Below, one piece after another: positions 3,871 to 50,033 of a stretch of DNA of 64,000 nt. The notes beneath the pieces were generated by a model, which worked only from the letters and a program-made list of their open reading frames with translations, was not told where the DNA came from and searched no databases. The translations under genes were made by a program, and so were the position numbers. Positions within the stretch are counted from its first letter, which is position 1; the number at the start of each line of letters is the position of its first letter. The DNA comes from Leptospirales bacterium (GTDB taxonomy: Bacteria; Spirochaetota; Leptospiria; Leptospirales; Leptospiraceae), in the NCBI GenBank assembly GCA_013297885.1, contig JAAFIR010000027.1, positions 1-64,000 on the forward strand. Reading direction: 5' to 3'.

Positions 3871-3965
3871 TCTAAAATCATTAACTAACTTAAAAAAACT
3901 CATTACGCAATTGAGATTTTTGTTTACTTATCGTTTATGATTTGATACCATAACAGTTTTTCAAA

Positions 3966-4010
3966 TTATTATAAACTCTTTTTTTAAACTACAAGTTTAT
4001 AATATTTTTT
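3966..4010 (+). terminator. Rho-independent terminator between convergent genes
   Basis: ATTATAAACT (3968-3977) pairs with AGTTTATAAT (3994-4003), followed by ATTTTTT. It lies between two genes that converge at 3870 and 4027. The stem is AT-only apart from one G-C pair, so it is weak. Confidence 0.45.
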
Positions 4011-4026
4011 AACATTGAGTTGATTG

Positions 4027-4605: not shown

Positions 4606-4718
4606 TTAGATTTCTATAAATTTTAATTTGTTATAGAAATCCAGAAGAAATTGTCTTTACCTAAATCCTTTTACTAAAAATTATACAATTGACTAATTTT
4701 TTAGAAGGTCTAATAATT

Positions 4719-5427: not shown

Positions 5428-5596
5428 TTATTTTGAATAATATTTTTTTCGTAAGAAAGAAACATCTTTATCAAAAAATTTATTTTACTCTGAAAAAACC
5501 TTTTTTAATTTGGAGTAATTCTTATGATAAATGAAAATTGAGTTCAAAAAATTACATTCTATTTTTACTTAAAACCTTTGATCGCAGAACTACCAC

Positions 5597-5805
5597 TCAT
5601 GGGTTTGTCCCCTCCACAATCCGAATCTCTTCCTCAGTCAATCCATACAACTCATACACCAGCTTATCAATCTGAGCGTCTAGCAAATCGCATTTTTGTT
5701 GAAATACTTTTTTGTCGGAGTCGCTTATAGCAGCATGCAAATCTTCTTGGGAAGTGAGCATAGTATCGACTAGCGATACTAGTTTGTCATGTTGGGCTTT
5801 TTGGG
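5597..5805 (-). pseudogene. Orphan 3' tail of the Eco57I-type methylase gene, copy 1
   Basis: Read on the minus strand this is a near copy of the last ~65 codons of the methylase gene at 10534-10735, with six differences over about 195 bp by my alignment. It still encodes DKLVSLVDTMLTSQEDLHA and ends YELYGLTEEEIRIVEGTNP before a stop at 5597-5599. There is no start codon or methylase body upstream; instead the HEPN gene runs straight into it. The match with copy 3 stops sharply at 5805 (CCCAAAAAGCCC), which marks the junction. Confidence 0.85.
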
Positions 5806-7355
5806 AAAATTTCTCTTTGAAAAGTTACATTTAAACTAATTCTATTTTCCGACTCATCATTTTTTTTAGTATCAGTTTCTATCGCCAAAAATAAATATAA
5901 AATTGCTGATTTAACTATCAAGAATAAATCAAGAATATCAATCTTTAGATGATCTATCGAATAGGAGGGCGTCTCATAGACATCATTTTCAAAAATGTCT
6001 ACCGTTTCATGAGTGATTTTATTTCTAAGATCTTTAAATTTAAAATATACTTTATCTTTATTAAAATCTTTAGCGAGATGATACAATGCTAGAAGTTGAT
6101 AATTTTTTTTATTCAAAACTATTTGCTTGAAAAATTTATTCTCAATATCTTTAAAATATATATTATCATTTCTTTCTACCTCAAAATAAGTGAATGCCGC
6201 TCTTGCAATTTTATCTAATATATTATTTAATGCGGAAAGGATAATTTTCAGAATACCATAATGGATAGAATTTTTTGAATAGTCATGTGTATAAATGAAC
6301 CTTACTTTTTCATCAAGCTCAGAAGTCGTTTTATTAGAATATTCGTAAAATAAATAGCGAAGACTAGCAAAATCTTCATGAATTTGGTTAAAAATTTTAA
6401 AAGTCGTTCTAGTTTTATCTGAAAAAATGGGTTCCCCATTTGAATTCACTTTTGCATCCTGAGTTAAAGGAGGATTCAAATTATCTACTAAGCTCTGCTC
6501 ATCGATGATAAATCCGAAATCAAAATTCAAAAATAAATTATTTTTTAAAACAAAATTTTCGTAATCAGTTATAATATAATCTTTGTTATCAATTGTAGTT
6601 ACATTACCATCAGCTAAAAAATTTGTTATATGATTTAATTTATTTTTGAAATGAGTCAGGGCATTTTCCCCACCGATTTTTAAAATTTGTTCTTCCTGAA
6701 GTAAAGCTTCTGATAATAAATTTTTTATTAAAGTTAATAATCGATAATCTTTATAAGGTGACAAATGGTAGTAAAAATAAATTGCATTTGCTTTTTTACC
6801 TAAAGCCATTCCAAAAGTTGGTTCATTCCTTAACACTTTCTCATAAAGTAGAATTGCTTCAAAGTTTCTACCATACTTATCCAATATACTAGCTTGATTT
6901 GTCTGTGCAGAACTAAAAAAATTCCCCTCTACTTGATTGAAATAATCTCTAGCAGTTGAATACTCAGTTTGCTCAACTAATTTTTCAAAGTTGGTAGGAT
7001 ATGGATTTTCTAAAATAGCTTTGGATTGGTAAGAAGTTCCTAGTTCATATTTAAATTTATTTTTATTTTCTTTGTCAGTTACTTTTTTAATTTTTTCCTT
7101 TAACCTTTTTATCACAAAATTAATTAACTTAATACTATTTATATCTAAAGCTAAATTACTCAATTCTCCTTCAACATTTAAATAATAATATAGATGACTT
7201 GAATATTTATTGTCTAGCTGATTTACTTTTTTTAATATCAACTCTACATTCTTTTGATTCTCAAAACCAAACCTAGTTAATTCCTCTAAATCTTCAACCA
7301 TTTGTTCATTCATAATTTTTCTTTGAATATTTTTGTGTGCCGAAATACTCTCCAT
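5787..7355 (-). CDS. LA2681-type HEPN domain protein, probable defence RNase
   Basis: A 522-residue soluble protein. The N-terminal ~250 residues are all-helical, with TPR-like pieces (YGRNFEAILLYEKVLRNEP, about 165-183). The C-terminal third looks like a HEPN domain: a helix with LDKIARAAFTYFEV, then LRNKITHE near 443-450. That gives R444-N-x3-H449, the R-x4-H site of HEPN RNases, with the usual Asn after Arg. The architecture matches what I recall of the LA2681-like HEPN family, first noted in Leptospira and thought to act in RNA-targeting defence or abortive infection. The start is taken at 7355; an ATG at 7313 is possible. The last few codons (KSPT) and the stop come from the methylase tail copy, so the ORF end was made at the junction. 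Confidence 0.7.
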   Translation of the reverse strand: MESISAHKNIQRKIMNEQMVEDLEELTRFGFENQKNVELILKKVNQLDNKYSSHLYYYLNVEGELSNLALDINSIKLINFVIKRLKEKIKKVTDKENKNKFKYELGTSYQSKAILENPYPTNFEKLVEQTEYSTARDYFNQVEGNFFSSAQTNQASILDKYGRNFEAILLYEKVLRNEPTFGMALGKKANAIYFYYHLSPYKDYRLLTLIKNLLSEALLQEEQILKIGGENALTHFKNKLNHITNFLADGNVTTIDNKDYIITDYENFVLKNNLFLNFDFGFIIDEQSLVDNLNPPLTQDAKVNSNGEPIFSDKTRTTFKIFNQIHEDFASLRYLFYEYSNKTTSELDEKVRFIYTHDYSKNSIHYGILKIILSALNNILDKIARAAFTYFEVERNDNIYFKDIENKFFKQIVLNKKNYQLLALYHLAKDFNKDKVYFKFKDLRNKITHETVDIFENDVYETPSYSIDHLKIDILDLFLIVKSAILYLFLAIETDTKKNDESENRISLNVTFQREIFPKSPT

Positions 7356-27362: not shown

Positions 27363-28208
27363 ATGAAAAAAGAAATCCATGTTCAAAACCATAAAATCAC
27401 TTACGAATCTCATTCCAAAGGAAAAGAAAAAATTATTTTTATTCATGGTTGGTCTTCTTTTCAATTTTACTGGTCAAATATCATTCAATATTATAAACCA
27501 TTTGGTGAATGTATCACAATTGATTTACCTGCTCATTATCCTGCTGTTGCTCCAGAAAATTTTAAAAATTTTTCGATAGATGACATCATTAATATTGAAA
27601 CAGAAGCAATAAAAAAAATTATCGGCGATGAAAAATGTATTTTGATTGGTCATTCAACTGGTGGGATTACTGCGATGGGAGTTGCATACAATTTAAAAGA
27701 ACAAGTTTCAAAATTAATTTTAGTTTGTTCAGTTGTTCATGGTCCAGTGACTAATTTTTTAAAATTTTATAAAATGGCTTTTGAAAATAATTTAGGTGGG
27801 ATTGTTTCTGAAATTCAAAAATTTTTGCTTGGTGTGAATGGAAGCAAATACATTTCTTTTCTGCCAGTTGTGCATGATAAATTTAAATTTTTTTCTGATC
27901 CAGAAATTAATTCTTATTTAGAAATTTATAACCAAATTTTTAAAAATATTTCTTCTGAAATTATGGGTGAATATTTGATAATGTTAGATAAATGTGATTT
28001 TAGAGAAAAAGCAAAAGAATTAAAAATGCCAACCCAAATTCATGTTGGGGTTCATGACATTATGGTTCCTGCAGAACATGGTTTTGAGCTTGCAAAAATT
28101 ATAAATCATGCAGAATTAGTGAAATACGAGAGTTCTGGACATGTTCCAACTCTTGAAGAAAAACAAAAATTTTTATCCAATACTTTGAGGTTTTTAAAAA
28201 ATGAGTGA
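27363..28208 (+). CDS. Alpha/beta-hydrolase-fold protein
   Basis: A 281-residue protein with the oxyanion HGW at 28-30, the nucleophile elbow GHSTGG at 96-101 (Ser98), an acid in GVHDIMVPAEHG and the catalytic His in SSGHVPTLEE near 258. It has no signal peptide. It belongs to the broad family of esterases and C-C hydrolases; the substrate cannot be told. It is followed at once by the first giant secreted protein, whose ATG overlaps its stop (TGATG), so the two may be co-translated. That link between a cytosolic hydrolase and a giant exported protein has no obvious meaning. Confidence 0.85.
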   Translation: MKKEIHVQNHKITYESHSKGKEKIIFIHGWSSFQFYWSNIIQYYKPFGECITIDLPAHYPAVAPENFKNFSIDDIINIETEAIKKIIGDEKCILIGHSTGGITAMGVAYNLKEQVSKLILVCSVVHGPVTNFLKFYKMAFENNLGGIVSEIQKFLLGVNGSKYISFLPVVHDKFKFFSDPEINSYLEIYNQIFKNISSEIMGEYLIMLDKCDFREKAKELKMPTQIHVGVHDIMVPAEHGFELAKIINHAELVKYESSGHVPTLEEKQKFLSNTLRFLKNE

Positions 28209-31200
28209 TGAATGCAAAACTTTTATTTAGTTTTTTAATTTTACAATTTTCTATTTTTGCTGTTGATTTTGATGATTTAAAAGAAAAACAAGGCAAAATT
28301 TATGGCTCAGAAAAAGACGAAAAGTATGTATATGATGCATTTTTTTCAGAATGGGAAAGTTGGCCTAGAAAAAATCCAACCCATTCCTCATTTCATTTTT
28401 TTTGGATTTTTAATTCTACTGATTACCCAAAATATTCCAAATCTCAATTTTTACCTTTTTATTCTTACCAAAAAAGTAAAATAGACAAAAGAGAAGAAAG
28501 TAATTTTTTACTTTTGTACAATTCTGAAATTGATGATAAGTCAAATGAAAGTTGCTATTTTTTACCATTATATTTTAGCGGGAAAACTGGAAAAAACAAT
28601 TATATATTCATGCCATTTTTACTAACCAGTTTTAGTGAAACTTATTCAAACCAATCAATTGATAAAACAAATTTTGTTGGACTTCATTATTCCAATTCTA
28701 TCAAAAATGAGTCAACTGGTATTGATGAAACTACCTATGTAAATCCATTTTTTTATTGGTCCGATTCCAAATCAAAATCAGGAAATTCTTCCACTTTATT
28801 TTTTCCAATTTTACCAATTGTTTATTCCTTTGAAGATGAAAAAAGTTCTAGAAAAAATTTTTTATGGTTAGTAGATTATACAACTGAAAATGATTCACTA
28901 AATAGATTTTTTTTCATGCCATTTGTATTTTACAAAAAAAATGAATACACAACAGTTTTTCCAATTTATTTTAATTATATAACTGATGCAGGTTCTGAAA
29001 AAACAATTATCCCAATTTTGTATTCATCTGAACTGAACAAAGATAATTCTTCTTCCAAAAATTTTCTATTGGTTTACAATCATGAATATGACCAAGAAGG
29101 AAACTTAAAAAATGTAAATTTTATAAATTCATTCTACAAAAAAGATTCTTATTATATATTTTTTCCATTTTATTACAATTGGTATGGAAAACTTCCTGAT
29201 GATAAAAAAGAAGAATCTAGTTTGTTCTTGCCACTATTTTACAAAAACCAAATTCAAAATGGAAATTCTTATTTGAATGTTTTGGGAATTTTTTCCACTG
29301 AACAAAATGAAAAATCAGAAACAATTTCTTCAAATTTATTTCCAATTTTGTTTTACAAAAAAGATTCAAGATTTGTATTTTTTCCTTTTTATTATAACTG
29401 GAAAGATAAAACACAGGAAAACAAAACAGAACAATCCAATTTATTTTTTCCAATTTATTACCAAAACAAAATTCAAGATGGAAATTTTTATGCAAATCTT
29501 TTGGGACTTTATTCTTATGAAGAAAACCAAAAATCTGAAAGAATAGGAACTTCCATATTTCCACTATATTATTACAAAAAAGATGATTATAGAGTCTATT
29601 TTCCATTTGTATTTTTATTTGGTTCTGAATCAGATATTGCTCCAAGTGGAAAAAATTTTGGTTTATTGCATTATCATTCTTGGGATGAACTTGGTGAACA
29701 AACTTTTATCACAAATTATTATTCTTCCAAAACAAAATCCACTAATGGAATTTTTAGAACATTCTTTCCATTCTTTTTTTATAAAAATGATATGAATGAA
29801 AAATATTTACAAAGTTTGATTTTTTATTCTTATCAAAATAAAAATAAATTAGATGAAAGTTTTTATATTTTTCCAATTTATTTTTCAAATGAAAAAGATG
29901 TTGAAAGTTCAACTTGGGCATTAAATTATTATACATCCGAAGACAAAAAGAAACAAGAAATTTTTACTACGCTCTTTCCTTTGTATTTTAAATCTGAAGA
30001 CGAATCTTCAAAAACTAGACAATCGCTATTATTATTTGAAAACAAAAATAAAAAAACTGGAAATTATTTTAGAACTGCTTTTCCAATTTATTATTCTTGG
30101 AAAACAGCTAAATCTGATGGATATGTATTTTTTCCTTTTTACACAAATATTGATTATCCAAACAAAACTAATTTTAATTTGAATTTATTTGGTTTTGCAA
30201 AAAATACAAATACTGGAATTTATTCTCCAGATATAAATTTAGATGCTGGAACAAAAGATTCTTACACTTATCTAGACACTGATTTTTCTTGGCTTTATAA
30301 TGTATTTAAGATTGAAACTAGAATCAGCACAAAACTTTTAGAAGAAATTAAAGAAGAGTTTCAAACTAAAAAAGTTTCGAAAGATGAAAAATTAGTTGTT
30401 TCTGAATCTCCAAAAATTACAAAGAAAAAAGATTTTACTCGCGAAAATACTTTAAACTTTTTTGGAATTAATTTTTTATTTTCAGCGTTTTCATTTGAAA
30501 GAGGAGATTCCAAAAGACATTTTAGGTTATTACCTCTAACTTGGCTAACTTGGGATAATAACTCCAAAGATCAATTAGTGGCAGTTCCATTTTATGTACA
30601 TTTCAAAAATCAATTTTTAGAATACACTGTATTATTTCCATTTTATGGAAAGCAGAAAACTCCTGAAGAAAAAAGATCTGCATATGGATTATTTTTCTAT
30701 TTAGATGAAGAATTCAAAAAAAATAATCACAAAGAAACATCTATCATTTGGCCTTTTTTTAATTCTTATAGAGCAGATAATCAGGAAGGTTCTCGTTTAA
30801 TTCCATTTTACCGCCATAAAAAAACTTGGAACGAATCAGAATTAAAAGAAAATACAATTTCATTATTTCATTATTCCAATTCTTATTTAGATGAGTTTGG
30901 AAAAGAAAAATCTTATCTGATTTCTCCGTTTTGGTTTTCAAATTCAGATACAAAAGATAATCTCACAGATTCATTTCACTTTACTCCACCATTATATGTA
31001 AAAACTTTTGAAGAAAATTCTAAACAAGAATTTCATCGTTTTGTTTCACTTCCATTTTATTACAGTTCTAGTTTTGATAAAGAGAAGAATTTTAGAAATT
31101 CAATTTTTTGGACAGTTCCGATTGTTCTACTTAGAAATAGAGAACACGATGAAGTGATTTGGAATTCATTTTTTATCAATAATTATTTTGATTCAGCTAA

Positions 31201-34200
31201 AAAGAATAATTTAATCCTCAGCGGAATTTATTATCATAATTTGGAATATGAAAAAGAAAATCAATTTTTAACTACTAGATGGACTTTACCTTTATTTTAT
31301 TATTATCGAAAATTACCTCGTGAAGGAGAAATTTATGATAAACTAAAATTTTATTCACCACTTGTTTTTTATTCTAGTTTTGAAAATCAAATAAACAATG
31401 AAAAAAGATATGATTATTTAATTCCACCACTTTTGTATTATAGATTGAATAATCCAAAAAAAGATTATTATAATTTTGCAGTCCTTTTTAGTTATGAGAA
31501 TTTTAAAATTAAAGAAGAATCAAATTTATTTTTAACTCCATTTTTTTCGATTCAATCTAAACCAGATTTATCTAGAAATTATTTGTTCCCAGTTTATTTG
31601 TACAATGATGTTCCAAAAGAAAAACGATTCCTTAGTTTAATTTACTCTTACCAAAATGAAAAATTGGATTTAGGGGAAGAAACAACTCATAATATTCCAA
31701 TTATCACTCCATTTTTATACTACCAAAATTCGTTTCTAGATTCAAAAAGTTGGAATTTATTAAGTTTAATGTATCGCAGAAAAAAAGCAGATTATATCTC
31801 TCATGGATTTTTACCATTTTATCATAATGAATCAACAGAAAACACAAACTATTCTGAAGATTTATCTTTTGTTTTTCCAATTTATTATTTTAAATCTTTA
31901 AACTCAGATGATCTAAATGAAAGTAATTTTTTTAGTTTATTCTTTGAAAGAAAAAATACAACCTCTGCAAATTTAAAAAACACTACTTATAAATTCCCGG
32001 GTATTGTTCCAATTGTTTTATATTTAGATAATGAAAACAATCAATTCTCTTGGAATATTTTTGGACTAGCTTACAGAAGAGAAAAGTCTGAATATGTATC
32101 ACATGGATTTTTGCCGTTTTATCATAATGAATCCATAAAAAATAAAACTCTCACTGAAGACCTAAATTATATTTTTCCATTTTATTATTCTTATGATACA
32201 AAAACAAAAGATAAATCTGAAACAAATTTTGCTTCGATTTTATTTTCTAGATCAGTTGTTGAAACTCCAAAGTTAAAAAATATCACTTACAAATTTCCAA
32301 GTTTTGTTCCAGTTTTATTTTACCAAGACGAACAAAATAAAAACTTTGATTGGAATTTGTTAAGTTTGATCTATAGAAGAGAAAAGTCTGAACATGTATC
32401 TCATGGATTTTTGCCTTTTTATCATAATGAATCCACAAATAGTAAAACTATCGCTGAAGACCTAAATTATATTTTTCCATTTTATTATTCTTATGATACA
32501 AAAACAAAAGATAAATCTGAAACAAATTTTGCTTCGATTTTATTTTCTAGATCAGTTGTTGAAACTCCAAAGTTAAAAAATATCACATACAAATTTCCTA
32601 GTTTTGTTCCAATTTTATTTTACCAAGATGAACAAAACAAAAATTTTGATTGGAATGTATTAAGTTTAATTTACAGAAGAGAAAAGTCTGAATATGTGTC
32701 ACATGGATTTTTGCCGTTTTATCATAATGAATCCATAAAAAATAAAACTCTCACTGAAGACCTAAATTATATTTTTCCACTTTATTATTCTTATGATACA
32801 AAAACAAAAGATAAATCTGAAACAAATTTTGCTTCGATTTTATTTTCTAGATCAGTTGTTGAAACTCCAAAGTTAAAAAATATCACATACAAATTTCCTA
32901 GCTTTGTTCCAATTTTATTTTACCAAGATGAACAAAACAAAAATTTTGATTGGAATGTATTAAGTTTGATTTACAGAAGAGAAAAACCAGATTATATCTC
33001 ACATGGATTTTTGCCTTTTTATCACAATGAATCCACAAATAGTAAAACTATCGCTGAAGACCTAAATTATATTTTTCCACTTTATTATTCTTATGATACA
33101 AAAACAAAAGATAAATCGGAAACAAATTTTGCTTCGATTTTATTTTCTAGATCAGTTGTTGAAACTCCAAAGTTAAAAAATATCACATACAAATTTCCTA
33201 GTTTTGTTCCAATTTTATTCTACCAAGATGAACAAAACAAAAATTTTGATTGGAATGTATTAAGTTTGATTTACAGAAGAGAAAAGTCTGAATATGTGTC
33301 ACATGGATTTTTGCCGTTTTATCATAATGAATCCATAAAAAATAAAACTCTCACTGAAGACCTAAATTATATTTTTCCACTTTATTATTCTAAATTCAAT
33401 CAAACTGGAAAAAATTCAAAATCAGAATTTTATTCATTGATTTATTCTAGCGAAGAAAAAAGAAATTTAAAAGAAAATTCAAGAATCACTTACCATAAAG
33501 TTCCATCCATAATTCCATTTATTTATTACCAAGATTCAAATGAAGCTGGAGAAACAAATTGGAATTTATTAAGTGTAATTTATTCTAGGAGTTCTAGATT
33601 TTTTGATGCAAATGGTTTTATCCCATTTTATCATTTTTCGACAAATAAAAATAAGAAAAATGAATTGGAAGAATCTTATGCTTATGTGTTTCCTTATTTT
33701 CAATTTGAAGATAAACAATCTGAAATTAAAAATGTAATGGGACTTTTATTCCATCAAAATTATTCTAAAAAAGAAAAATCAAATTCAACTTCAGTACTTT
33801 ATCCAATTGTAACTACAAAAAATTCTAAAGACAAATTTCAATTCCAAAGTTTATTTGGTCTAATTGAATCAAATTCAGAAAAAGATTTTTCAGATTTTAA
33901 TTTCTTCTGGCTTGGTTATAAAAACAGGTCCGAAATTTCTAGCGTAAATTTATTTCCATTCTTGTATTCAAAAGATACAAAAGAAGAAAAAACAAAATTA
34001 GTTTTACCTTTACTTTCTTATTCAAATAAATCTAAAAATGAAGAATTACAATCTACTGGGCTTAGTTTGATCTATCATTCCAAAAAAGATTTAGTTACTA
34101 AAGAAGAAGATACTTTTTTACTTGGTGGATTATTGTATTATAAAGTCAAACGACCAAGTGAAAGAGGTTATGAAGGTGAAGGGTCTTTGTGGGGAGTTTT

Positions 34201-34285
34201 ATGGGAATACAAAACTGAGTCTGAAACCAATTATAAAAAATTATCTGTCTTAAAAGTGATTACTCTTTATAAAGAAACAATGTGA
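28208..34285 (+). CDS. Giant secreted protein with aromatic FP-x-YY repeats, long paralogue
   Basis: I prefer the ATG at 28208 (TGATG with the previous stop) over GTG at 28205. It gives about 2,025 residues with a signal peptide ending SIFA before VDFDDLKE. Nearly the whole mature chain is built from short strands of the form (F/L)-FP-(F/I/L)-YY-x, LSLIY-RR and FLPFYHNES, at intervals of about 20-50 residues, separated by Lys/Asn/Glu-rich turns. This suggests a long repetitive beta structure, as a fibre, solenoid or very large barrel. Residues about 1,190-1,730 contain exact 100-residue repeats. There is no catalytic motif. A paralogue of 1,462 residues follows. It is probably envelope-located; the function is unknown. 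Confidence 0.75.
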   Translation: MNAKLLFSFLILQFSIFAVDFDDLKEKQGKIYGSEKDEKYVYDAFFSEWESWPRKNPTHSSFHFFWIFNSTDYPKYSKSQFLPFYSYQKSKIDKREESNFLLLYNSEIDDKSNESCYFLPLYFSGKTGKNNYIFMPFLLTSFSETYSNQSIDKTNFVGLHYSNSIKNESTGIDETTYVNPFFYWSDSKSKSGNSSTLFFPILPIVYSFEDEKSSRKNFLWLVDYTTENDSLNRFFFMPFVFYKKNEYTTVFPIYFNYITDAGSEKTIIPILYSSELNKDNSSSKNFLLVYNHEYDQEGNLKNVNFINSFYKKDSYYIFFPFYYNWYGKLPDDKKEESSLFLPLFYKNQIQNGNSYLNVLGIFSTEQNEKSETISSNLFPILFYKKDSRFVFFPFYYNWKDKTQENKTEQSNLFFPIYYQNKIQDGNFYANLLGLYSYEENQKSERIGTSIFPLYYYKKDDYRVYFPFVFLFGSESDIAPSGKNFGLLHYHSWDELGEQTFITNYYSSKTKSTNGIFRTFFPFFFYKNDMNEKYLQSLIFYSYQNKNKLDESFYIFPIYFSNEKDVESSTWALNYYTSEDKKKQEIFTTLFPLYFKSEDESSKTRQSLLLFENKNKKTGNYFRTAFPIYYSWKTAKSDGYVFFPFYTNIDYPNKTNFNLNLFGFAKNTNTGIYSPDINLDAGTKDSYTYLDTDFSWLYNVFKIETRISTKLLEEIKEEFQTKKVSKDEKLVVSESPKITKKKDFTRENTLNFFGINFLFSAFSFERGDSKRHFRLLPLTWLTWDNNSKDQLVAVPFYVHFKNQFLEYTVLFPFYGKQKTPEEKRSAYGLFFYLDEEFKKNNHKETSIIWPFFNSYRADNQEGSRLIPFYRHKKTWNESELKENTISLFHYSNSYLDEFGKEKSYLISPFWFSNSDTKDNLTDSFHFTPPLYVKTFEENSKQEFHRFVSLPFYYSSSFDKEKNFRNSIFWTVPIVLLRNREHDEVIWNSFFINNYFDSAKKNNLILSGIYYHNLEYEKENQFLTTRWTLPLFYYYRKLPREGEIYDKLKFYSPLVFYSSFENQINNEKRYDYLIPPLLYYRLNNPKKDYYNFAVLFSYENFKIKEESNLFLTPFFSIQSKPDLSRNYLFPVYLYNDVPKEKRFLSLIYSYQNEKLDLGEETTHNIPIITPFLYYQNSFLDSKSWNLLSLMYRRKKADYISHGFLPFYHNESTENTNYSEDLSFVFPIYYFKSLNSDDLNESNFFSLFFERKNTTSANLKNTTYKFPGIVPIVLYLDNENNQFSWNIFGLAYRREKSEYVSHGFLPFYHNESIKNKTLTEDLNYIFPFYYSYDTKTKDKSETNFASILFSRSVVETPKLKNITYKFPSFVPVLFYQDEQNKNFDWNLLSLIYRREKSEHVSHGFLPFYHNESTNSKTIAEDLNYIFPFYYSYDTKTKDKSETNFASILFSRSVVETPKLKNITYKFPSFVPILFYQDEQNKNFDWNVLSLIYRREKSEYVSHGFLPFYHNESIKNKTLTEDLNYIFPLYYSYDTKTKDKSETNFASILFSRSVVETPKLKNITYKFPSFVPILFYQDEQNKNFDWNVLSLIYRREKPDYISHGFLPFYHNESTNSKTIAEDLNYIFPLYYSYDTKTKDKSETNFASILFSRSVVETPKLKNITYKFPSFVPILFYQDEQNKNFDWNVLSLIYRREKSEYVSHGFLPFYHNESIKNKTLTEDLNYIFPLYYSKFNQTGKNSKSEFYSLIYSSEEKRNLKENSRITYHKVPSIIPFIYYQDSNEAGETNWNLLSVIYSRSSRFFDANGFIPFYHFSTNKNKKNELEESYAYVFPYFQFEDKQSEIKNVMGLLFHQNYSKKEKSNSTSVLYPIVTTKNSKDKFQFQSLFGLIESNSEKDFSDFNFFWLGYKNRSEISSVNLFPFLYSKDTKEEKTKLVLPLLSYSNKSKNEELQSTGLSLIYHSKKDLVTKEEDTFLLGGLLYYKVKRPSERGYEGEGSLWGVLWEYKTESETNYKKLSVLKVITLYKETM
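31775..33390 (+). repeat. 300-bp tandem repeat within the giant gene, with 600-bp higher order
   Basis: Units start at 31775 (divergent), 32075, 32375, 32675, 32975 and 33275 (partial), exactly 300 bp apart and in frame. The marker peptide in the last five alternates: KNKTLTED, NSKTIAED, KNKTLTED, NSKTIAED, KNKTLTED. The units at 32075-32674 and 32675-33274 therefore form a nearly identical 600-bp dimer repeat. This points to recent expansion by unequal recombination or slippage. Confidence 0.9.
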
Positions 34286-34410: not shown

Positions 34411-37400
34411 ATGCCATTTAAATTCGTATTTAGTTTTTTTTTAGTTTTACAAATTTCTATTTTTGCTGTTGATTTTGATGATTTAAAAGAAAAACAAGGG
34501 AAAGTTTATGGCTCAGAAAAAGATGAAAAATATATTTATGATGCTTTTTTTTCTGAGCTAGAAAGTTGGCCAAAAAATAATCCAACACATTCTTCTTTTC
34601 ATTTTTTTTGGATTTTTAATAATACAGATTATCCAAAATATTCAAAATCTCAATTCAGTCCATTTTATTCTTTAGAGAGAAGTAAAGTAGATAAAAGAGA
34701 AGAAACAAATTTTTTAATTTTATATAACTTCGAAATAGATGAAAAATCAAATGAATCCGCATATTTTTTTCCGTTTTATTTTAGTGGAAAAATTACAAAT
34801 AGAAATTATACTCATTTACCACTCTTAATGACTAGTTTTAGTGAATCTATTTCAGCTAATTCAAGAGAAAGTTCAAATTTAATTGGACCATTTTATTCAA
34901 ATCATTTAAAAGATGATAGAAATAATTTTGAAGAAAATTCAAGTATAAATCCTTTTTATTATACAAATCAACAAAAAACAAAATCAGGAAATTCTTCTAC
35001 TTATTTTTTTCCTATCTTACCTATTATTTATTCATTTGAAGATGAAAAAAGTTCCAGAAAAAATTTTTTTTGGTTAGTAGATTATACCACCGAAAAAGAT
35101 TCACTAAATAGATTTTTTTTCATGCCATTTGTATTTTACAAAAAAAATGAATATACTACTATTTTTCCAATTTATTTTAATGTAAAATCTGAGACTGGTT
35201 CAGAAAAAACGATTATTCCAATTTTATTTTCTTCTGAAACAAAAAAAGATAAATCTTCATCTAAAAATTTTCTTTTGGTTTACAATCATGAATTTGATTC
35301 AAATGATAAATTAAAAAGTTTTTATTTGTTTCCACTATATTTTCATTGGAAAAATAAAATTTCAGAAAATCAAACTGAAAAATCAAATTTATTTTTACCA
35401 TTATATTACACGAATCAAATTGAAAATGGAAAATCTTATCTAAATCTATTTGGACTTTATTCTTATGAAACAAATGAAAAATCTGAAAGAATGGGAACAA
35501 CGATTTTTCCATTTTATTTTTATAAAAAAGATCAATACAGAGTCATTTTTCCAATAATATTCAAATTTGGTGAAGAATCTGAAAAAGCTCCTTCAGGAAA
35601 AACTTATGGTTTATTCTATTATAATTCTTGGGATGAAAAAACTGAAGAAACTTTATTAGCAAATTATTATACTTCAAAATCAAAAAATGAAAATTTTAAA
35701 ACTTTTTTTCCATTATTTTTCCAATCTGAAGATGAAATTTCCAAAATTCAAAATGTCGGGTTATTTTTATTTCACCAAAATAAATACAAAAGAACAGGTA
35801 ATTATTATAGAACTGCATTCTTAAGTTATCATTCTTGGAAAACTGATAAATCAGACGGAATATTATTTTTTCCTTTTTATATTAATATTGATTATCCCAA
35901 TAAAACTAATTTTAATCTGAATCTAATTGGTCTTGCGAATAGTTCTTCAAAAGGACTTTATACACCAGATATAAATTTAGATGCTGGAACAAAAGATACT
36001 TATAAATATATTGATACAGATATTTCATGGCTGTATAATATTTTTAAAATTGAAACTAGAATCAGCACAAAATTAATCGAAGATCTTAAAGAAGAATTTA
36101 AATTTAAAAAATATTCTAAAGAAGAAAAACTAACAAATCAAACTTCTCCTAAAATACAAAGGAAAAAAGATTTTACTCGTGATAATACTTTAAATTTTTA
36201 TGGAATCAATTTTTTATTTTCAGCATTATCTTTTGAAAGAGGAGATTCAAAAAGGCATTTTAGAATCTTACCACTTACTTGGGTAACTTGGGATGAAAAA
36301 TCTAAAGACCAATTAATTGCTGCACCTTTTTTTGTTTATTTTAATGATGAAGTTTCAAAATATATTGTAGCATTTCCATTTTATGCTAACCAAGAAACTC
36401 CAGAAGAAAAAAGAACTGCTTATGGTTTGTTATTAAAAATTGATGAAGAATATAAAGAAAACAAACTTAAAGAGCATTCTTATATTTGGCCAATAATTAA
36501 CTATTATACTTCAAAAAATGCAGAAGGTTCTCGCATAATTCCGTTTTACCGCTACAAAAGAACTTGGAATGAATCAGAAGAAAACAAAAATACTATTTCT
36601 CTTTTATATTTTTCTAATTTTTACATAAATGATTCTGGAATTGAAAAAGGCATAGTTGTTTCTCCTTTTTGGTTTTATAATTTAGATAGTAAAAATGATA
36701 TTAAAGATTCGTTTCATTTTACGATTCCTTTTTATTATAAAACTTATGAAGAAAGTAAAACTACAGAGTTTCATCGTTTTATTTCCCTACCATTTTATTT
36801 AAGTTCAAGTTTTGATAAAGAAACTAAGTTTAAAAAATCTATTTTTTGGACGATTCCAGTTTTAGTATTTAGAAATCGAGAAAATGATGAAGTCACTTGG
36901 AATACTTTATTTATAAATAATTACATTGATTCATCAAAAAAAAATAATTTATTCTTAAGCGGAATTTATTATCATAATTTAGAATATGAAAAAGAAAAAC
37001 ATTTTTTAACTACTAGATGGTTTTTGCCCTTATTTTATTATGATAGAAAATTACCTCGCCAAAATGAAGTTTATGATAAATTTAAAATTTATACTCCATT
37101 TATTTTTTATTCAAGTTTAGAAAATACTTCATCAAAAGAAAAAAGATATGATTATTTAATTCCACCTTTGCTGTATTATAGATTAAATAATCTTGAAAAA
37201 GATTATTATAATTTTGCAGCTATTTTTAGTTATGAAAAATTTAAAACTAAAGAAGAAAGTAATCTTTATTTAACTCCATTTTTTTGTGTTCAATTAAAAC
37301 CAGAATTAAATCAAAATTATTTTTTCCCAATTTATTTCTATAAGAAAAATTCTAAGGAAACTATATTTACAAATTTACTATTTTCTACTCAAAGTGAAAA

Positions 37401-38799
37401 ATTAGAATTAGGTGAAGAAAATACTTTAAAAGTTCCAATGTTTCTTCCAATACTATTTTATAAAAATTCTTATCCAGATAACAATTCTTGGAATTTTCTT
37501 AGCTTTTTATATAGAAGAGTTAGTAATGATTTTGTTTCACATGGAGTTTTTCCAATATATAATAATGAAAGTAAAAAAAATAAAAACTATTCTGAAGACC
37601 AAAATTATATTTTTCCAATTTATTATTATAAAAATTATAAATCAGGAGAAAACTCAGAAACCAATTTTATTACAATTTTTTCAAGAACAAACGAAGAAAG
37701 CCAAAATATAAAAAGAGTAATTTACAAATTTCCAAGTTTTGTTCCGATTGTTTGGTATAAAGAGAATGAAAACAATAAATCTTCTTGGAATTTTTTAAGT
37801 TTAATTTACTCAAGAGAAAATTCTGTTTCAAATTCTTTTGGTTTATTTCCAATTTTTGGAAAAAAATCAACTGAAACAAGTTTCATGAATTTTCTAGCAC
37901 CTGTTTATTATTATTATAATGATGAAACCAAACAAGATAAAATTTCTGAATTAATTACTTTGCCTTTTTATTATAAAAATCAAAATTATTCAGGAAAAAA
38001 ATATTCAAAATACCAAATTCCTTATTTTCTTCCTTTTATATATAATTATGAAAATGAAAACGATTCTACTGGTTGGAATTTATTTAGTTTATTTTATTCA
38101 AGAAGTTCCAGTCTTCATTCTTCAACTGGGTTTATTCCCTTTTACCATTTTTCAACCACAAAGAATCAAAAAAGTGAATTAGCTGAATCATATTCTTATC
38201 TTTTTCCTTACTTTCAATATGAAGATAAAGTTATTGAAATTAAAAATGTTTTAGGAATTTTATATCACCAAAATTATTCTAAACTAGAAAAATCAAATTC
38301 TATTTCAATTTTATATCCATTAATTCATTCTGAATCTGCAAAAGATAAATTTAAATTCCAAAATTTATTTGGGTTAATTGAATACAATACTGAAAAAGAA
38401 TTTTCTGATTTTAACTTTTTCTGGTTTGGATACAAAAATAATTCTGATTCAAATTCATTAAATTTATTTCCAGCTTACTATTCAAAAGATACTAAAGAAG
38501 AAAAAACAAAACTAGTTTTACCATTATTAACTTATACAAATAATTCTAAAACTGAAGAATTTCAATCAACTGGTCTCAGTATTTTGTATCATTCCAAAAA
38601 AGATTTAGTGACTAAAGAAGAAGATACTTTTTGGTTACTTGGAATTTTATACTATAAAATTAATCGTCCTTCTGAAAGAGGTTATGAAGGGCAAGGTTCA
38701 CTTTGGGGAGTATTATGGGAATACAAAACAGAGTCAGAAACTAATTACAAAAAATTTTCCATTTTGAAAATAATAACTATTTTTAAAGAAACAAAATGA
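34411..38799 (+). CDS. Giant secreted protein with aromatic FP-x-YY repeats, short paralogue
   Basis: A 1,462-residue paralogue of the previous protein. The N-terminal region is nearly the same (signal peptide ending SIFA, then VDFDDLKEKQGK-x-YGSEKDEK and the WPxxNPTHSSFHFFWIFN block), and so is the C-terminal region (KKDLVTKEEDTF, RPSERGYEG, SLWGVLWEYKTESETNYKK). The middle has the same aromatic strand pattern, but the 100-residue block repeats of the longer paralogue are not expanded here. The conserved ends with a variable centre suggest fixed end modules and a length-variable body. It has its own 125-bp leader. The function is unknown; it is probably exported to the envelope. Confidence 0.75.
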   Translation: MPFKFVFSFFLVLQISIFAVDFDDLKEKQGKVYGSEKDEKYIYDAFFSELESWPKNNPTHSSFHFFWIFNNTDYPKYSKSQFSPFYSLERSKVDKREETNFLILYNFEIDEKSNESAYFFPFYFSGKITNRNYTHLPLLMTSFSESISANSRESSNLIGPFYSNHLKDDRNNFEENSSINPFYYTNQQKTKSGNSSTYFFPILPIIYSFEDEKSSRKNFFWLVDYTTEKDSLNRFFFMPFVFYKKNEYTTIFPIYFNVKSETGSEKTIIPILFSSETKKDKSSSKNFLLVYNHEFDSNDKLKSFYLFPLYFHWKNKISENQTEKSNLFLPLYYTNQIENGKSYLNLFGLYSYETNEKSERMGTTIFPFYFYKKDQYRVIFPIIFKFGEESEKAPSGKTYGLFYYNSWDEKTEETLLANYYTSKSKNENFKTFFPLFFQSEDEISKIQNVGLFLFHQNKYKRTGNYYRTAFLSYHSWKTDKSDGILFFPFYINIDYPNKTNFNLNLIGLANSSSKGLYTPDINLDAGTKDTYKYIDTDISWLYNIFKIETRISTKLIEDLKEEFKFKKYSKEEKLTNQTSPKIQRKKDFTRDNTLNFYGINFLFSALSFERGDSKRHFRILPLTWVTWDEKSKDQLIAAPFFVYFNDEVSKYIVAFPFYANQETPEEKRTAYGLLLKIDEEYKENKLKEHSYIWPIINYYTSKNAEGSRIIPFYRYKRTWNESEENKNTISLLYFSNFYINDSGIEKGIVVSPFWFYNLDSKNDIKDSFHFTIPFYYKTYEESKTTEFHRFISLPFYLSSSFDKETKFKKSIFWTIPVLVFRNRENDEVTWNTLFINNYIDSSKKNNLFLSGIYYHNLEYEKEKHFLTTRWFLPLFYYDRKLPRQNEVYDKFKIYTPFIFYSSLENTSSKEKRYDYLIPPLLYYRLNNLEKDYYNFAAIFSYEKFKTKEESNLYLTPFFCVQLKPELNQNYFFPIYFYKKNSKETIFTNLLFSTQSEKLELGEENTLKVPMFLPILFYKNSYPDNNSWNFLSFLYRRVSNDFVSHGVFPIYNNESKKNKNYSEDQNYIFPIYYYKNYKSGENSETNFITIFSRTNEESQNIKRVIYKFPSFVPIVWYKENENNKSSWNFLSLIYSRENSVSNSFGLFPIFGKKSTETSFMNFLAPVYYYYNDETKQDKISELITLPFYYKNQNYSGKKYSKYQIPYFLPFIYNYENENDSTGWNLFSLFYSRSSSLHSSTGFIPFYHFSTTKNQKSELAESYSYLFPYFQYEDKVIEIKNVLGILYHQNYSKLEKSNSISILYPLIHSESAKDKFKFQNLFGLIEYNTEKEFSDFNFFWFGYKNNSDSNSLNLFPAYYSKDTKEEKTKLVLPLLTYTNNSKTEEFQSTGLSILYHSKKDLVTKEEDTFWLLGILYYKINRPSERGYEGQGSLWGVLWEYKTESETNYKKFSILKIITIFKETK

Positions 38800-41702: not shown

Positions 41703-42602
41703 TTGTCAAATCAAACCCCTGCAAAACTATTACAGAACTTTCAAGAGTACTTATCTATTGAAAAAGGATTAAGTGATAATTCTATCTTCTCCTATGGGTA
41801 TGATTTGAATAAATTTAAAACTTTTATTGATAAACAACAAATTGATTTATTAAAAGTTCAATCAAAAGATATTATGAAATTTTTAGTGGAAGAAAAAAAT
41901 AGAAAAATTTCTTCAAAAACTTTAGCCCGTGAAGTAGTAGCTCTTAGACAATTTTACAAATATTTAAGAGATGAAAAAAAATTAGACATTAACCCAACTG
42001 ATAAAATTGAAACCCCTGAAGTAATGAGGGCAATTCCTGACCATTTGAGTTTAGATGAAATCGAAGAACTATTTGCAAAAATTAAAGAAGATAACATTTA
42101 CGAGTTAAGAGATAAATGTATTTTCGAATTATTGTATTCTACCGGTCTTAGAATTTCAGAAGCTTGTAATTTAAAAATTGAAGATTTAGATTTAGAAAAT
42201 CTCACTCTGACAATAGATCAAAAAGGTGGAAAATCGAGACTAGTTCCTTTTGGAGAAAAGGCTAAAACTATTTTAGAAAGTTACTTAAAAAATTCAAGAA
42301 CAGAAATTTTAAAAATTAGAAAATGTGAATATGTTTTTGTTTCAAAAAAAGGTTCATTTATTAACAGAAAATCTGTATGGAGACTTTTAAATCTTTATAT
42401 TAAAAGAACTTCTATTCAAAAAAAAGTAACCCCTCACACTTTAAGACATTCATTTGCAACTCACCTTTTAGAAAATTCAGCAGACCTAAGAGCTGTTCAA
42501 GAATTACTTGGTCATATCGACATTTCTACAACACAAATTTATGCTCAAATGGCGAAAAAATCTTTAAAAGAAGTTCATAAAGATCATCACCCAAGAGGTT
42601 AA
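41703..42602 (+). CDS. XerC/XerD-type tyrosine recombinase
   Basis: A 299-residue recombinase. The N-terminal SAM-like core-binding domain is at about 5-95 and the catalytic domain follows. The catalytic set is present: Arg150 (STGLRISEA), Lys177 region (KGGKSR), His245-x-x-Arg248 (TPHTLRHSFATHLL), His271 (LLGH) and nucleophile Tyr280. The length is that of housekeeping XerC/D, which resolves chromosome dimers at dif, so it is not a phage integrase by size. I cannot tell XerC from XerD. The start is TTG at 41703 with AAGAGAG upstream. The 284 bp before it are AT-rich with no other feature seen. Confidence 0.85.
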   Translation: MSNQTPAKLLQNFQEYLSIEKGLSDNSIFSYGYDLNKFKTFIDKQQIDLLKVQSKDIMKFLVEEKNRKISSKTLAREVVALRQFYKYLRDEKKLDINPTDKIETPEVMRAIPDHLSLDEIEELFAKIKEDNIYELRDKCIFELLYSTGLRISEACNLKIEDLDLENLTLTIDQKGGKSRLVPFGEKAKTILESYLKNSRTEILKIRKCEYVFVSKKGSFINRKSVWRLLNLYIKRTSIQKKVTPHTLRHSFATHLLENSADLRAVQELLGHIDISTTQIYAQMAKKSLKEVHKDHHPRG

Positions 42603-44702: not shown

Positions 44703-47700
44703 ATGGTCAAATATTTTTTATTTAGTCTATTTTTTTTTCAAACTCTTTTTGCTGTTGAAGTTAACAAGTCTGAAATTTTTAGAGGAAGAGTAATTGATCA
44801 GTCCACAAATCTTGGAATTCCTGAAGCAATTATAGAATTAAAAAACTCTAATTTGGGTGTTGGATATTATAAAGTTGAAACTGACAAACTTGGATATTTT
44901 GAAATTAAAAATTTTATTTTTAAAATTAATTATAAATTAACAATTTCAAAAAAAGGCTATTTAGATTTTGTAAAACAAGATTATTTTAATTCAAATCCAA
45001 ATAAGTTCTTATTATATAAAGAAAGTAAAATTTTAGGTGAAGTAAAAAATACTAAGGATAAAAATTTAGATAATGTTGAAGTCACGGTAATTGAAGGATA
45101 TTATTCTCAAAAAAGAATTCATACTACTAAAACTGATAAATTTGGAAGGTATAGTTTTGAAAAATTAGAAAATAAATCTTATATTTTAGAATTTAGAAAA
45201 GAAAATTTTATCACAGAAACAGCAAGTATTAAAGAAATGAAATTTGGTGAAAATTTTTATTTACCCATGAGACTTTATGAAAATAGCTCACTATATGGTA
45301 AACTAAAAATTGAATCTTCTGAAACACCTGCTGATTCAATAAATGTAATTTTACAAAACGGAAAAATTTCTCATAATGTTCAAACTTTTTTAAATGGAGA
45401 ATTTCAAATTGATGCAATTAAGCCAGGGGAATATATTTTAAAATTTTCTCATATTGGTTTTTATGAAAAAGTTGAAAAAATTAAGATTGGTGAAGGATAT
45501 AAAGTAAAAAAGGAAACTATTTCATTAAAAGCTAAAGAACCTAGTCTAATTTTATCTGCAAATCGTTTTGTTTTTACTCCTCTAGATAAAATTAGTTTTG
45601 ATTTAAAAACTTTTAGACTAGAAACTGTAAAAGTAAAAATTTTTGAATTAAAATCTAAAGATAAATCGAATATAATTCAAACAAGATTTAATGAAAAATC
45701 ATTAACTGATTCAAAATTGGTTTCAGAGTGGATTTTAAATATTAAAAATTTTAGAGATTATAATTGGAATTATACTGAAGTAGAATTAAAAGAAAAATTA
45801 CCAACTGCAAATTATCTAATCCAAATTTCTTCAGAAGATGAAAAAGTTTTAACTAATAAATATTTTTCTATCACAACTGTTGGAATTTTAGTAAAACGTT
45901 CAGAAGAAAAATTATTTTTATATGCCTCTGATTTTATTACAAATGAACCAATTAAAGATGCAAAAATTTATTTAAGTTATGAAAAAAAGGAAATTGAAGA
46001 TAAATCAAAAAAAGATTCCATAAAAGAAAATAATCAATCATCTGTTCAAGGAATTGATGAATCTTTTCCTCTTGAAGATGAAGAAGGTAATAATTTATCT
46101 AATCAAATTAAAACTGTTGATAGAACAAATTTAGAAATTTTTGGAGAAGGAGTCACAGATAAAAATGGTTTATTTGAAATAAATGTAAAAAATATAGAAG
46201 AAGAAATTGATATTGTCATTTTTAATTTTGATGGAAGTTCAGCATATGCAAGTATTTCAAAAACAAATATTTCAGATTCTGAATTAAATACTTATTTTGC
46301 TTATACAGATAGACCAATTTATAGACTAGGTGACGAAGTTCATTTCAAAATCCTTGCTAAAGAAAGGAAAAATAAATTTCGACCAATTACAAATGCAAAG
46401 ATAACTGTTGAAATTAAAAATCAAGATTCTGTATATTCTTTGCAAGAATTTCAGTTGGATGAATTTGGAACTTGTAATGGAAATTTTATTATACCAAATG
46501 AAAAAACAGGTTTGTATCAAATTTTTATTAACAATATAAATATCAACTATTTTCAAGTTATAGAGTATCGAAAACCAGAATTTAAAATAGAATTAAATCC
46601 CATTAAATCATATTACACAAATAATGAAGAAGTTGAATTTAAAGTCGAAGCAAAATATTTTTTCGGCTCACCTATGTCAGAAGCTTTAGTTTCTTATAAA
46701 TTTTATGAAGAAAAAGTGGATCAAGAAAAAAGGTTTACAGATAATGTAAACCAATCTTATTTTAATCGTGAACTCAAACTTGAGGGTTCAAAAAATCTCG
46801 ATGAAAATGGAATTAATATATTAAAATTTAACTCTAAAGATTTACCTTATTCAAGAAAAATTATTTTAGAAGTAAGTATTAGTGATAAAAGTAATATCAA
46901 AATTACTGAAAACAAATCTGTTTATATAAGAAAAGGTGATTTTTATATTTCTATAAATTCTGATAAAAATTATTTTTTTGGACAAGAAAAAAAGAAATTT
47001 TTAATTGAAACAAAAGATTTTAATCAAAAACCAATTTCAACTGAAGTTCAAATAAATTTTCATCGTTTTATTTGGAAACCACACCAAAGAATTTATTCTC
47101 ATGAAGAAAAACCATTAGTAATAAAAAAAATTAAAACTGATAAAAATGGTCTTTTTGAATTAGAAATTTCAGATGAATTTAATTTTTCAGGTGAGTTTGA
47201 TGTTTTAGCAAGTTCCGTGGATATAAAAGGAAATATAGTTAAAGAAAGTAAGTTATTTTGGAATTATTTTAACAACCAAATTGATACAAGTTCCAAATTG
47301 AAAAATTTAGAAATTTCTCTTGCAAACGAAAAATTAAATGGTGAAGATCAACTAGAAATATTGATTAAGTCAAAATTTAAAGATTCTTTTATTTTACTCA
47401 CTTTAGAAGGAAAAGAAATTTTTGAAACTAGATTAGTAAAAATGGAAGGAAATTTTTATAATACGAAAATAAAAATTAAACCAGAATATTCTCCAAATTT
47501 ATTTATTAAAGCTAGTCTTCAAAAAAATAAATCTTTATATGTTGTTTCGCATAACTATAATTATCCTGAAAAAGATACTAATTTAAAAATCAGCATTAAA
47601 ACTGACAAAGAAAAATATTCACCAAGAGAAAAAATGAAATTAGAAATTGATGTTACAAATGAAATAGGTAAGCCAGAAGAAACAGATTTATCCATAGCGG

Positions 47701-50033
47701 TTGTTGACGAATCTATTTTTAAAATTACCGAAGACCATACTCCAATCATGCAGCCATATTTTTACAAACCAATTTCAAATTGGGTAACAACTACTTATTC
47801 ATACCCAATTAGTTTTTTAGCAGGTGCTTCAAAAGATTTAACTGAAGAAATTGTTCGAAAAAATTTTAAAGATACTGCATTTTGGATTCCAAATTTAAAA
47901 ACCGATAAAAATGGAAAAGCTGGTCTAGAAGTTCAATTTCCTGATAATTTGACTGAATGGAGGATTACTTCAAGAGGACATGATAAATCTGGAAGAGTGG
48001 GTGAGGTGATTGAAAAAAAATTAGTTACTAAAGATTTAGTTTTAAGATTAGCTAAACCAAGATTTTTAATTGAAGGAGATGAAATTGAATTATTAGGTAT
48101 TATTAATAATAATTCTAATGATAATTTTTCTTTAGTTGAAACAGAATTTAAAATTAATGATAAAAAAATTACAAAACAAAATTTAGATAAAATTTCTTTA
48201 GCCACAAAAGCTGCCACAGAAGAAAAATTTAGAATTAAAGTGCCCAATTCGGAATTTTTAAAAGTTGAATACAAAGCAAACGTAAATGATAAAATCAAAG
48301 ATGCAATTGAAATTAAAATTCCAATTTATAAAAATTCTATTGAATGGATTGTAAAAGAATTTGGAACCCAAGATCAAAAAAATATAAAAGTAAAATTAAA
48401 TCCAAATCCTTCTGAATATGTTTTATATTCAAATGAATTAAAATTAAATACCTATTTTTCTCAAATTGAAAAATTATTTTTAGCTAATAAATCTATACAA
48501 GAGTTCCCTTATTCTTGTATAGAACAAACTACAAATAAAATTTTACCTTCTTTAAAATTACAAGAATTGTATTTAAAATTGATGGCTGAAAAAAATACAG
48601 ATACTAGTTCAATTGAACAATTAGCATTAGAGAATTTAGACTTTATCCAAAATAAATCTTCCAGCTTAAAAGAAAAAATTCAAAACTCTCAAAATTATGA
48701 TGGAAGTTTTGGTTGGTGGGATGGTGGAAAAGGAAATGAATTTTTAACTTCCTATTTAATTGAATCTTCAGAAATTTTAGAAATTCGAGAAATAAATAAG
48801 TCTGTTAAATTTGCAAAAAAATATTTAGAAAATAATCAAAATATCGGACTAGATGAAAAAGCTTATTTATTATTTGCATTAGCAAAAAATTCTTTATGGT
48901 CTGAAGCAAGTTTTAAATCTTTAGAAAATAAAAATTTATCTAATTTTGCTCTTTCCTATTTTATTCGTGCTATTAATTTACAAGTTAAACAAAATCGAAA
49001 AAGTGAAATGAATGCAGATAATGAAAAAGTTGATCTTTTTCAAAAAAATAATTTTAAAGACAAATCAAACTTATTGGAAAGTTTAATTAAAGAATTATTA
49101 TCTAGAAAAAAAGCTGATTCAAATGGAGTTTATTTTGAGTCTGAACAAAAGAATACTTCCAATTGGCAAGGCTCTGATATTGAAATTACAGCTCTGACTT
49201 TACAAACTTTTATGGAAGTAGATTCTAAACTTGATCTAAATGATTTAGCAAACTCTTTATTAAATCGAATCAAAGGTGATTCTTGGGGAAATACAAAAGA
49301 AACTGCTAGAGTAATTTGGGCATTATCTAATTTTTATTTAACTAAGAAAAATTTAAAATTAGATAAAACAGATTTAAATTATTATTTAAATGAGAAATTG
49401 ATTCATAAAATAGATAAATCTAAAAATGAAATTTTAGATAAAAATAAAATCATAAAACTTGATTCTGAAAAGATGGAAGATTTGAATTTTCAAGTTCAGC
49501 TTAAAGAAAATACTAACTTTAGTTTTGGTTTAACTTTTAAAAATGATTTATTACCTATTTCAAATAATTCTAAAGTTGAAAAATTAAACCAAGGTTTGAG
49601 TATCAAAAAAGAATTTTTCGGATTAAAAAGAATTAGAGATAAACAAAATTCTGAATATTTTGTTCCGTTTTTATTAAACTTAAAAGAAATACAGATTGGT
49701 GATGAAATTTTAGTTAAATTAAAAATTAAAGCTAAAAAAAATTATTCATATTTAATGTTAGAAGATTTTATTCCTTCTGGATTTGAAATTGTTAAAACAG
49801 ATGCTTATGATGGAATTAAAAATTATACTTTTTCAGAAATCAGAGATAATCGAGTGATTTATTTTTTTGAAAAAATTCATGAAAATCTAGAAGAAGAAAT
49901 TTCTTTTATTTTAAGAACAGAATTATCTGGTGAGTTTTCAGTGAGACCGGCAAAAATTCATGGTATGTATTCTCCTGAAATAAGAGGTTATTCAGAATTC
50001 AAAAAAATAAAAGTTGTCACAAAGAATAAATAA
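44703..50033 (+). CDS. Alpha-2-macroglobulin-like protein with thioester
   Basis: A 1,776-residue protein with a signal peptide ending LFA before VEVNKSE. The N-terminal ~280 residues hold carboxypeptidase-regulatory-like beta domains (GRVIDQSTNLGIPEAIIELK, GEVKNTKDKNLDNVEVTV). The macroglobulin body follows, with DRPIYRLGDEVHFKILA as the classic MG motif, then WIPNLKTDKNGKAGLEVQFPDNLTEWRIT. The thioester motif is CIEQ with Cys1272, and GSFGWWDGG follows in the alpha-helical TED. It traps attacking proteases covalently in the periplasm. The usual penicillin-binding partner PbpC is not adjacent. It closes the SH3b-VanW-AMMECR1 operon. It may anchor through another partner, as no lipobox is seen. 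Confidence 0.9.
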   Translation: MVKYFLFSLFFFQTLFAVEVNKSEIFRGRVIDQSTNLGIPEAIIELKNSNLGVGYYKVETDKLGYFEIKNFIFKINYKLTISKKGYLDFVKQDYFNSNPNKFLLYKESKILGEVKNTKDKNLDNVEVTVIEGYYSQKRIHTTKTDKFGRYSFEKLENKSYILEFRKENFITETASIKEMKFGENFYLPMRLYENSSLYGKLKIESSETPADSINVILQNGKISHNVQTFLNGEFQIDAIKPGEYILKFSHIGFYEKVEKIKIGEGYKVKKETISLKAKEPSLILSANRFVFTPLDKISFDLKTFRLETVKVKIFELKSKDKSNIIQTRFNEKSLTDSKLVSEWILNIKNFRDYNWNYTEVELKEKLPTANYLIQISSEDEKVLTNKYFSITTVGILVKRSEEKLFLYASDFITNEPIKDAKIYLSYEKKEIEDKSKKDSIKENNQSSVQGIDESFPLEDEEGNNLSNQIKTVDRTNLEIFGEGVTDKNGLFEINVKNIEEEIDIVIFNFDGSSAYASISKTNISDSELNTYFAYTDRPIYRLGDEVHFKILAKERKNKFRPITNAKITVEIKNQDSVYSLQEFQLDEFGTCNGNFIIPNEKTGLYQIFINNININYFQVIEYRKPEFKIELNPIKSYYTNNEEVEFKVEAKYFFGSPMSEALVSYKFYEEKVDQEKRFTDNVNQSYFNRELKLEGSKNLDENGINILKFNSKDLPYSRKIILEVSISDKSNIKITENKSVYIRKGDFYISINSDKNYFFGQEKKKFLIETKDFNQKPISTEVQINFHRFIWKPHQRIYSHEEKPLVIKKIKTDKNGLFELEISDEFNFSGEFDVLASSVDIKGNIVKESKLFWNYFNNQIDTSSKLKNLEISLANEKLNGEDQLEILIKSKFKDSFILLTLEGKEIFETRLVKMEGNFYNTKIKIKPEYSPNLFIKASLQKNKSLYVVSHNYNYPEKDTNLKISIKTDKEKYSPREKMKLEIDVTNEIGKPEETDLSIAVVDESIFKITEDHTPIMQPYFYKPISNWVTTTYSYPISFLAGASKDLTEEIVRKNFKDTAFWIPNLKTDKNGKAGLEVQFPDNLTEWRITSRGHDKSGRVGEVIEKKLVTKDLVLRLAKPRFLIEGDEIELLGIINNNSNDNFSLVETEFKINDKKITKQNLDKISLATKAATEEKFRIKVPNSEFLKVEYKANVNDKIKDAIEIKIPIYKNSIEWIVKEFGTQDQKNIKVKLNPNPSEYVLYSNELKLNTYFSQIEKLFLANKSIQEFPYSCIEQTTNKILPSLKLQELYLKLMAEKNTDTSSIEQLALENLDFIQNKSSSLKEKIQNSQNYDGSFGWWDGGKGNEFLTSYLIESSEILEIREINKSVKFAKKYLENNQNIGLDEKAYLLFALAKNSLWSEASFKSLENKNLSNFALSYFIRAINLQVKQNRKSEMNADNEKVDLFQKNNFKDKSNLLESLIKELLSRKKADSNGVYFESEQKNTSNWQGSDIEITALTLQTFMEVDSKLDLNDLANSLLNRIKGDSWGNTKETARVIWALSNFYLTKKNLKLDKTDLNYYLNEKLIHKIDKSKNEILDKNKIIKLDSEKMEDLNFQVQLKENTNFSFGLTFKNDLLPISNNSKVEKLNQGLSIKKEFFGLKRIRDKQNSEYFVPFLLNLKEIQIGDEILVKLKIKAKKNYSYLMLEDFIPSGFEIVKTDAYDGIKNYTFSEIRDNRVIYFFEKIHENLEEEISFILRTELSGEFSVRPAKIHGMYSPEIRGYSEFKKIKVVTKNK

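Follow-up and report, generated by a model that had tools for sequence, protein, structure and literature searches.

How did a run of near-identical 300-bp units arise inside one giant gene of a Leptospirales bacterium, and what might such units contribute to the encoded protein? The gene, P0001 (28205..34285; 2026 aa), lies in a 64-kb stretch of DNA, termed here the window, from a host genome of 4.6 Mb in 72 contigs; all features given below for P0001 and its neighbor are on the plus strand. Its likelier start is the ATG at 28208, which opens a signal-peptide-like N-terminus (28208..28267) recognized by eye as a hydrophobic stretch followed by FAVDF; this start suggests that P0001 encodes a giant secreted protein. 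Farther along are an older tandem pair with a period of 219 bp (29135..29584; 73 aa, four strand-like segments), a conserved core region common to family members (30434..30817), a run of eight modules of ~100 aa each (31157..33541; profile score at least 40 bits per module) and the LA_1737_Cterm domain (NF047486; 33872..34261; E 2.6e-34). Beyond membership in the LA_1737_Cterm family, we found no known surface domain in P0001.

A sequence-only reading of this locus had proposed exact 300-bp repeats comprising six in-frame units. The unit starts (31775, 32075, 32375, 32675, 32975 and 33275) are indeed spaced by 300 bp and all fall in the frame of P0001, and Tandem Repeats Finder reports the interval 32071-33391 with a period of 300, 4.4 copies, 93% matches and a score of 2369. 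The period is therefore exact as claimed, but near-identical whole units number only four: U2 (type A; 32075..32374), U3 (type B; 32375..32674), U4 (type A; 32675..32974) and U5 (type B; 32975..33274), so assigned by comparison of unit DNA and sharing 91.3-96.0% identity in DNA (ungapped) and 89-97% in protein. U1 (31775..32074) is diverged, with 64-66% DNA identity to U2-U5, and U5 is U1-like over its first 24 bp. U6 (33275..33391) is a partial type A unit: its overall DNA identity to U2-U5 is 59-63%, the resemblance is confined to the first 117 bp, and it agrees with U4 at every site to column 117. The longest exact repeat in the array is 133 bp, at a lag of 300.

Two marker peptides, NESIKNKTLTEDL versus NESTNSKTIAEDL, follow the order A-B-A-B-A across U2-U6. 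The alternation previously noted amounts to six sites in columns 42-79, which set U2, U4 and U6 against U3 and U5; there it holds, but the remaining columns are mosaic, with the 3' parts of U3, U4 and U5 mostly alike and U2 differing. In all, about 30 sites vary among the units, and the variants are arranged as a consistent mosaic. Because the alternation in columns 42-79 coincides with identity of U4 and U6 over 117 bp, a copy of a 600-bp block is likely, which supports the earlier suggestion that two units were duplicated together, from [U3 U4] to [U5 U6]. The simplest history on these comparisons would be this single 600-bp copy followed by conversion among units. In-frame recombination between repeats, with purifying selection acting on them, best accounts for the mosaic, recombination being the presumed mechanism.

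The age of the expansion can be set against that of the gene pair. P0001 is followed by a tandem paralogue, P0002 (34411..38799; 1462 aa), also of the LA_1737 family. Pairwise comparisons among U2-U5 give dN of 0.01-0.05 and dS of 0.09-0.32 (dN/dS below about 0.35), and P0001 differs from P0002 with dS of 0.59 in the 5' part, 0.78 in the core and 0.81 in the 3' flank. Since dS between units is below that between paralogues, the near-identical run arose after the gene pair. The supposition that the expansion is recent was thus borne out in this relative sense, and amplification in P0001 appears to postdate the gene duplication, with the qualification that conversion lowers dS, which is consequently not a clean clock. 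The related statement that the shorter paralogue has no array needs amendment: P0002 is devoid of the near-identical run, but the module profile detects in it four diverged module copies (36895..38064) against eight in P0001. Modules run end to end after the core in eight copies in P0001, four in P0002, seven in the relative L073 and eight or nine in L074, at ~40 bits or more, these four genes matching by construction because the profile was built from them; no comparable run occurred in the other genes scanned with it. To judge from these comparisons, the module is old and its amplification new.

Both window genes belong to the LA_1737 family by the curated cut-off of NF047486.1 (60 bits), with scores of 118.5 and 133.5 bits, and LA_1737_Cterm is their sole NCBIfam match. 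The model, which assigns no function, is limited to 158 C-terminal positions; in both genes the best match ends at model position 139, short of positions 140-158, which the cut-off does not require. In the window (34240-34285 and 38750-38799), both genes end without the last ~13 residues (a RILGVRL-like end) of most relatives. Start, core and end are otherwise held in common between the window genes and LA_1737 relatives. With P0001 as the only query, genome contigs gave no relatives, and with the core alignment they gave 11; all 11 members of alignment A2 match NF047486. In searches of nested groups, the family domain was present in 6 of 8 genomes of the family, 20 of 30 of the order, 30 of 48 of the class and 49 of 296 of the phylum, and in none of 14 controls. 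Named relatives are Leptospiraceae and Spirochaetes metagenome-assembled genomes. Plasmids searched with P0002 yielded nothing, PDB sequence searches returned no similar chain up to E 1, and no Pfam repeat family, beta-propeller or other, matched among the 11 members; a Pfam Transposase_31 match on the P0001 array (E 5e-6, 26.7 bits) was judged to be chance, occurring in only one of the 11. Among the papers listed in literature searches none dealt with LA_1737, those retrieved by name being unrelated as judged by their titles. One relative, L097 (G008), carries on its reverse strand two ORFs (2487-4313 and 4225-6348; 609 and 708 aa) that seem to be a single LA_1737-type gene, split.

Recent copying is not peculiar to P0001. 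Tandem blocks of 69-215 residues that share at least 85% DNA identity over 120 bp were detected in 7 of 51 distinct family genes, representing five genera and three families by taxonomy labels (L083 was matched to G065 through an 1804-aa reading frame). The periods are 300 bp in P0001, 207 and 645 in L073, 639 in L074, 399 in L083, 267 and 351 in L094, 423 in L096 and 249 in L098; with every lag scanned, and the masked N runs of L082 excluded, all are multiples of three and none of the seven arrays breaks the frame. Two of the seven are weaker family members under the cut-off, L098 (E 9.1e-5) and L094_6176 (44 bits). The 51 genes are ORFs picked by motif and by length near a family hit, after dropping G001 (a duplicate of L077), L097_2487 (the smaller piece of a broken ORF) and L140_1888 (a duplicate of L082); the count leaves out family hits retrieved only in part (e.g., G028, G046, G013:C26, G181:C183 and G204) as well as L138 and L141, from which no ORF passed the filter. 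Tandem blocks occur in seven of the nine genes of at least 1700 aa and in none of the 42 shorter ones, lengths being lower bounds for genes that are masked or truncated at a contig end (L081, L082, L088, L091, L092, L128 and L139 among them). Because arrays occur in 7 of 51 genes and are concentrated in seven of the nine longest, the LA_1737 family grows repeatedly by amplification of modules, using different blocks. The link between length and arrays is partly arithmetic, as copies add length; extreme length in this family is nevertheless usually accompanied by recent copying. By eye the units of different genera show no close resemblance, and the amplification events look independent. An arrangement like that of the window recurs in G018 (L094:6176-16900), where the long array-bearing LA_1737-type gene (2268 aa) has a shorter LA_1737-type gene (1306 aa) immediately after it.

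We consider it likely that the locus records a recent in-frame amplification, through recombination, of one structural module in a giant exported LA_1737 protein, and that this amplification sets the protein's size. The module of P0001, 100 aa with five strand-like segments, would have been added to by homologous recombination between modules, whether by unequal crossing-over or by slippage during replication, and some gene conversion would have taken place as well; at least one addition would have been a two-module block of 600 bp, and purifying selection would preserve the reading frame of the units and their likeness as protein. More generally, members of the family are probably built as a chain of strand-like segments of ~18-20 residues in which start, core and end are conserved, and probably grow by copying blocks of four to 10 segments on either side of the core.

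Large arrays are uncommon in the host genome, and that of P0001 is not the only one. Within the 64-kb window, repeats with a period of at least 45 occur only in P0001, and in a Tandem Repeats Finder control of 331 kb in 20 other stretches they occur in seven of the 20, with periods that include 61, 69 and 149 bp. What looks like a CRISPR array, with a ~29-base repeat (cggttcaaccccgcgtatgtggggaatag) and ~32-base spacers, lies at a contig end (L115:1-730), and L118 has similar 61-bp periods. In L116, tandem repeats of 69/345 bp fill much of a 4.3-kb contig that encodes, on the minus strand (428-2944), an 838-aa leucine-rich-repeat-like protein. Another contig end, L110:1-441, carries a 149-bp repeat in three copies (96% matches); the encoded start, MKPYPKYKDSGVEWLG, resembles type I restriction specificity subunits. 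Elsewhere in the window are a gene for a tyrosine recombinase of 299 aa (41703-42602; Phage_integrase, E 8.9e-49) and one for an alpha-2-macroglobulin-like protein of 1776 aa (44703-50033), the latter behind VanW-like (43443) and AMMECR1-like (44138) genes.

Could the units have expanded merely as repetitive DNA does, with no functional effect? The other repeats in the genome and the scatter of array-bearing members over genera would both fit such neutral drift. Preservation of frame in seven arrays and the low dN/dS among U2-U5 speak against it, although they counter it only in part, as selection may keep the module without favoring extra copies; we regard this account as rather unlikely. The array might instead act as a contingency locus whose length differs between cells and so varies a surface antigen. 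The exact repeats, as long as 133 bp, can recombine, and module number does differ both between the paralogues and between species. Because all changes are in frame and the units of P0001 are under purifying selection, however, on/off switching is not indicated and diversifying selection is hardly in evidence; nothing in the named relatives, which are metagenome-assembled genomes, points to a host. Antigenic variation of this kind is accordingly an unlikely purpose of the array.

The remaining structural question is what the copied segments form. Counted by hydrophobicity, units contain whole numbers of segments, stable over most of 12 settings: four in units of 69, 73, 83 and 89 aa, five in 100 and 104 aa, six in 117, 133 and 134 aa, seven in 131 and 144 aa, eight in 141 aa, and 10 in 213 and 215 aa. 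The shortest unit is even-numbered in eight of nine recent arrays and two of five older ones (one protein can give two arrays), a pattern noticed after the fact in few arrays and taken only as a lead. Across 779 instances of the motif, from 37 proteins, its core has hydrophobic residues on both sides of a proline, at -2, -1, +1, +2 and +3, and shows no in/out alternation, positions -1 to +3 being partly forced by the search pattern. On their sequence pattern the modules are predicted to be of beta structure. AlphaFold returned a mean pLDDT of 34.1 for the whole of L077 (939 aa, 11 rows) and 32.4 for four array modules (415 aa, 5 rows); such models were rejected as fold-search queries, as matches to a low-confidence model are meaningless. 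Alignment A4, made from overlapping windows, was set aside because identical stretches had collapsed onto the same columns.

Outer-membrane proteins have a hydrophobic C-terminal end, and LA_1737 relatives end in hydrophobic ...ILGISF or ...ILGVRL. Together with the segment length of ~18-20 aa and the even shortest unit in eight of nine recent arrays, as antiparallel closure needs, this would suit a giant outer-membrane beta-barrel in which every segment would cross the membrane as an antiparallel strand and added copies would make the barrel wider. Against it stand the missing alternation of polarity in the motif (some positions, again, forced by the search pattern), the five segments of the P0001 unit, the even count in only two of five older arrays, and the loss from both window genes of the last ~13 residues of relatives. 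The 11 proteins, furthermore, have about 55-133 segments, far above the 8-26 strands given in PMC6340704. We doubt, on balance, that these proteins are barrels of this kind.

A more ambitious version, which we hold to be distinctly improbable, would place LA_1737 proteins in a class of their own, not described before: giant antiparallel beta structures, closed or stacked, with a diameter or length set by copied even-numbered blocks of strands. Recent copying would then favor blocks of four, six, eight or 10 strands, odd blocks flipping the sheet, and the odd five-segment unit of P0001 would have been copied most recently as a pair of 10 segments.

That assembly created or distorted the array is very improbable: the 72 contigs include some ending in repeats, and exact repeats of 133 bp are near short-read length, such that copies may be missing and the copy number in P0001 possibly wrong (e.g., through collapse in a short-read assembly), but assembly error would not generate the consistent mosaic at ~30 differing sites, the array is well inside a 69-kb contig, and comparable arrays occur elsewhere, one of them in an assembly of about three contigs (G018).

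Size-setting amplification of a module, the reading we prefer, has parallels in known systems. In PMC9218822, recently amplified beta-propellers likewise consist of near-identical structural units copied independently, at the DNA level, in many lineages; in LA_1737, by contrast, no propeller or known repeat domain was detected, Pfam giving only chance-like hits, and block size ranges from four to 10 segments as opposed to the fixed four-strand blade. Outer-membrane beta-barrels similarly have hairpin-like repeats, and hairpin amplification is known in them and proposed as their mode of growth (PMC6340704); LA_1737 proteins differ in a motif that lacks alternating polarity and in far more numerous segments. 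Copy number would most likely set the size of an extended, beta-rich protein of the envelope, a size that may matter to its function. Protein growth by internal copying of modules is well known, usually in named folds, and is seen here to recur, through different blocks, in an uncharacterized family of very large and apparently exported proteins, which offers several independent, datable cases of a size change in whole-number steps of strand-like segments. Such cases could reveal a fold that tolerates growth, and whether size itself is selected.
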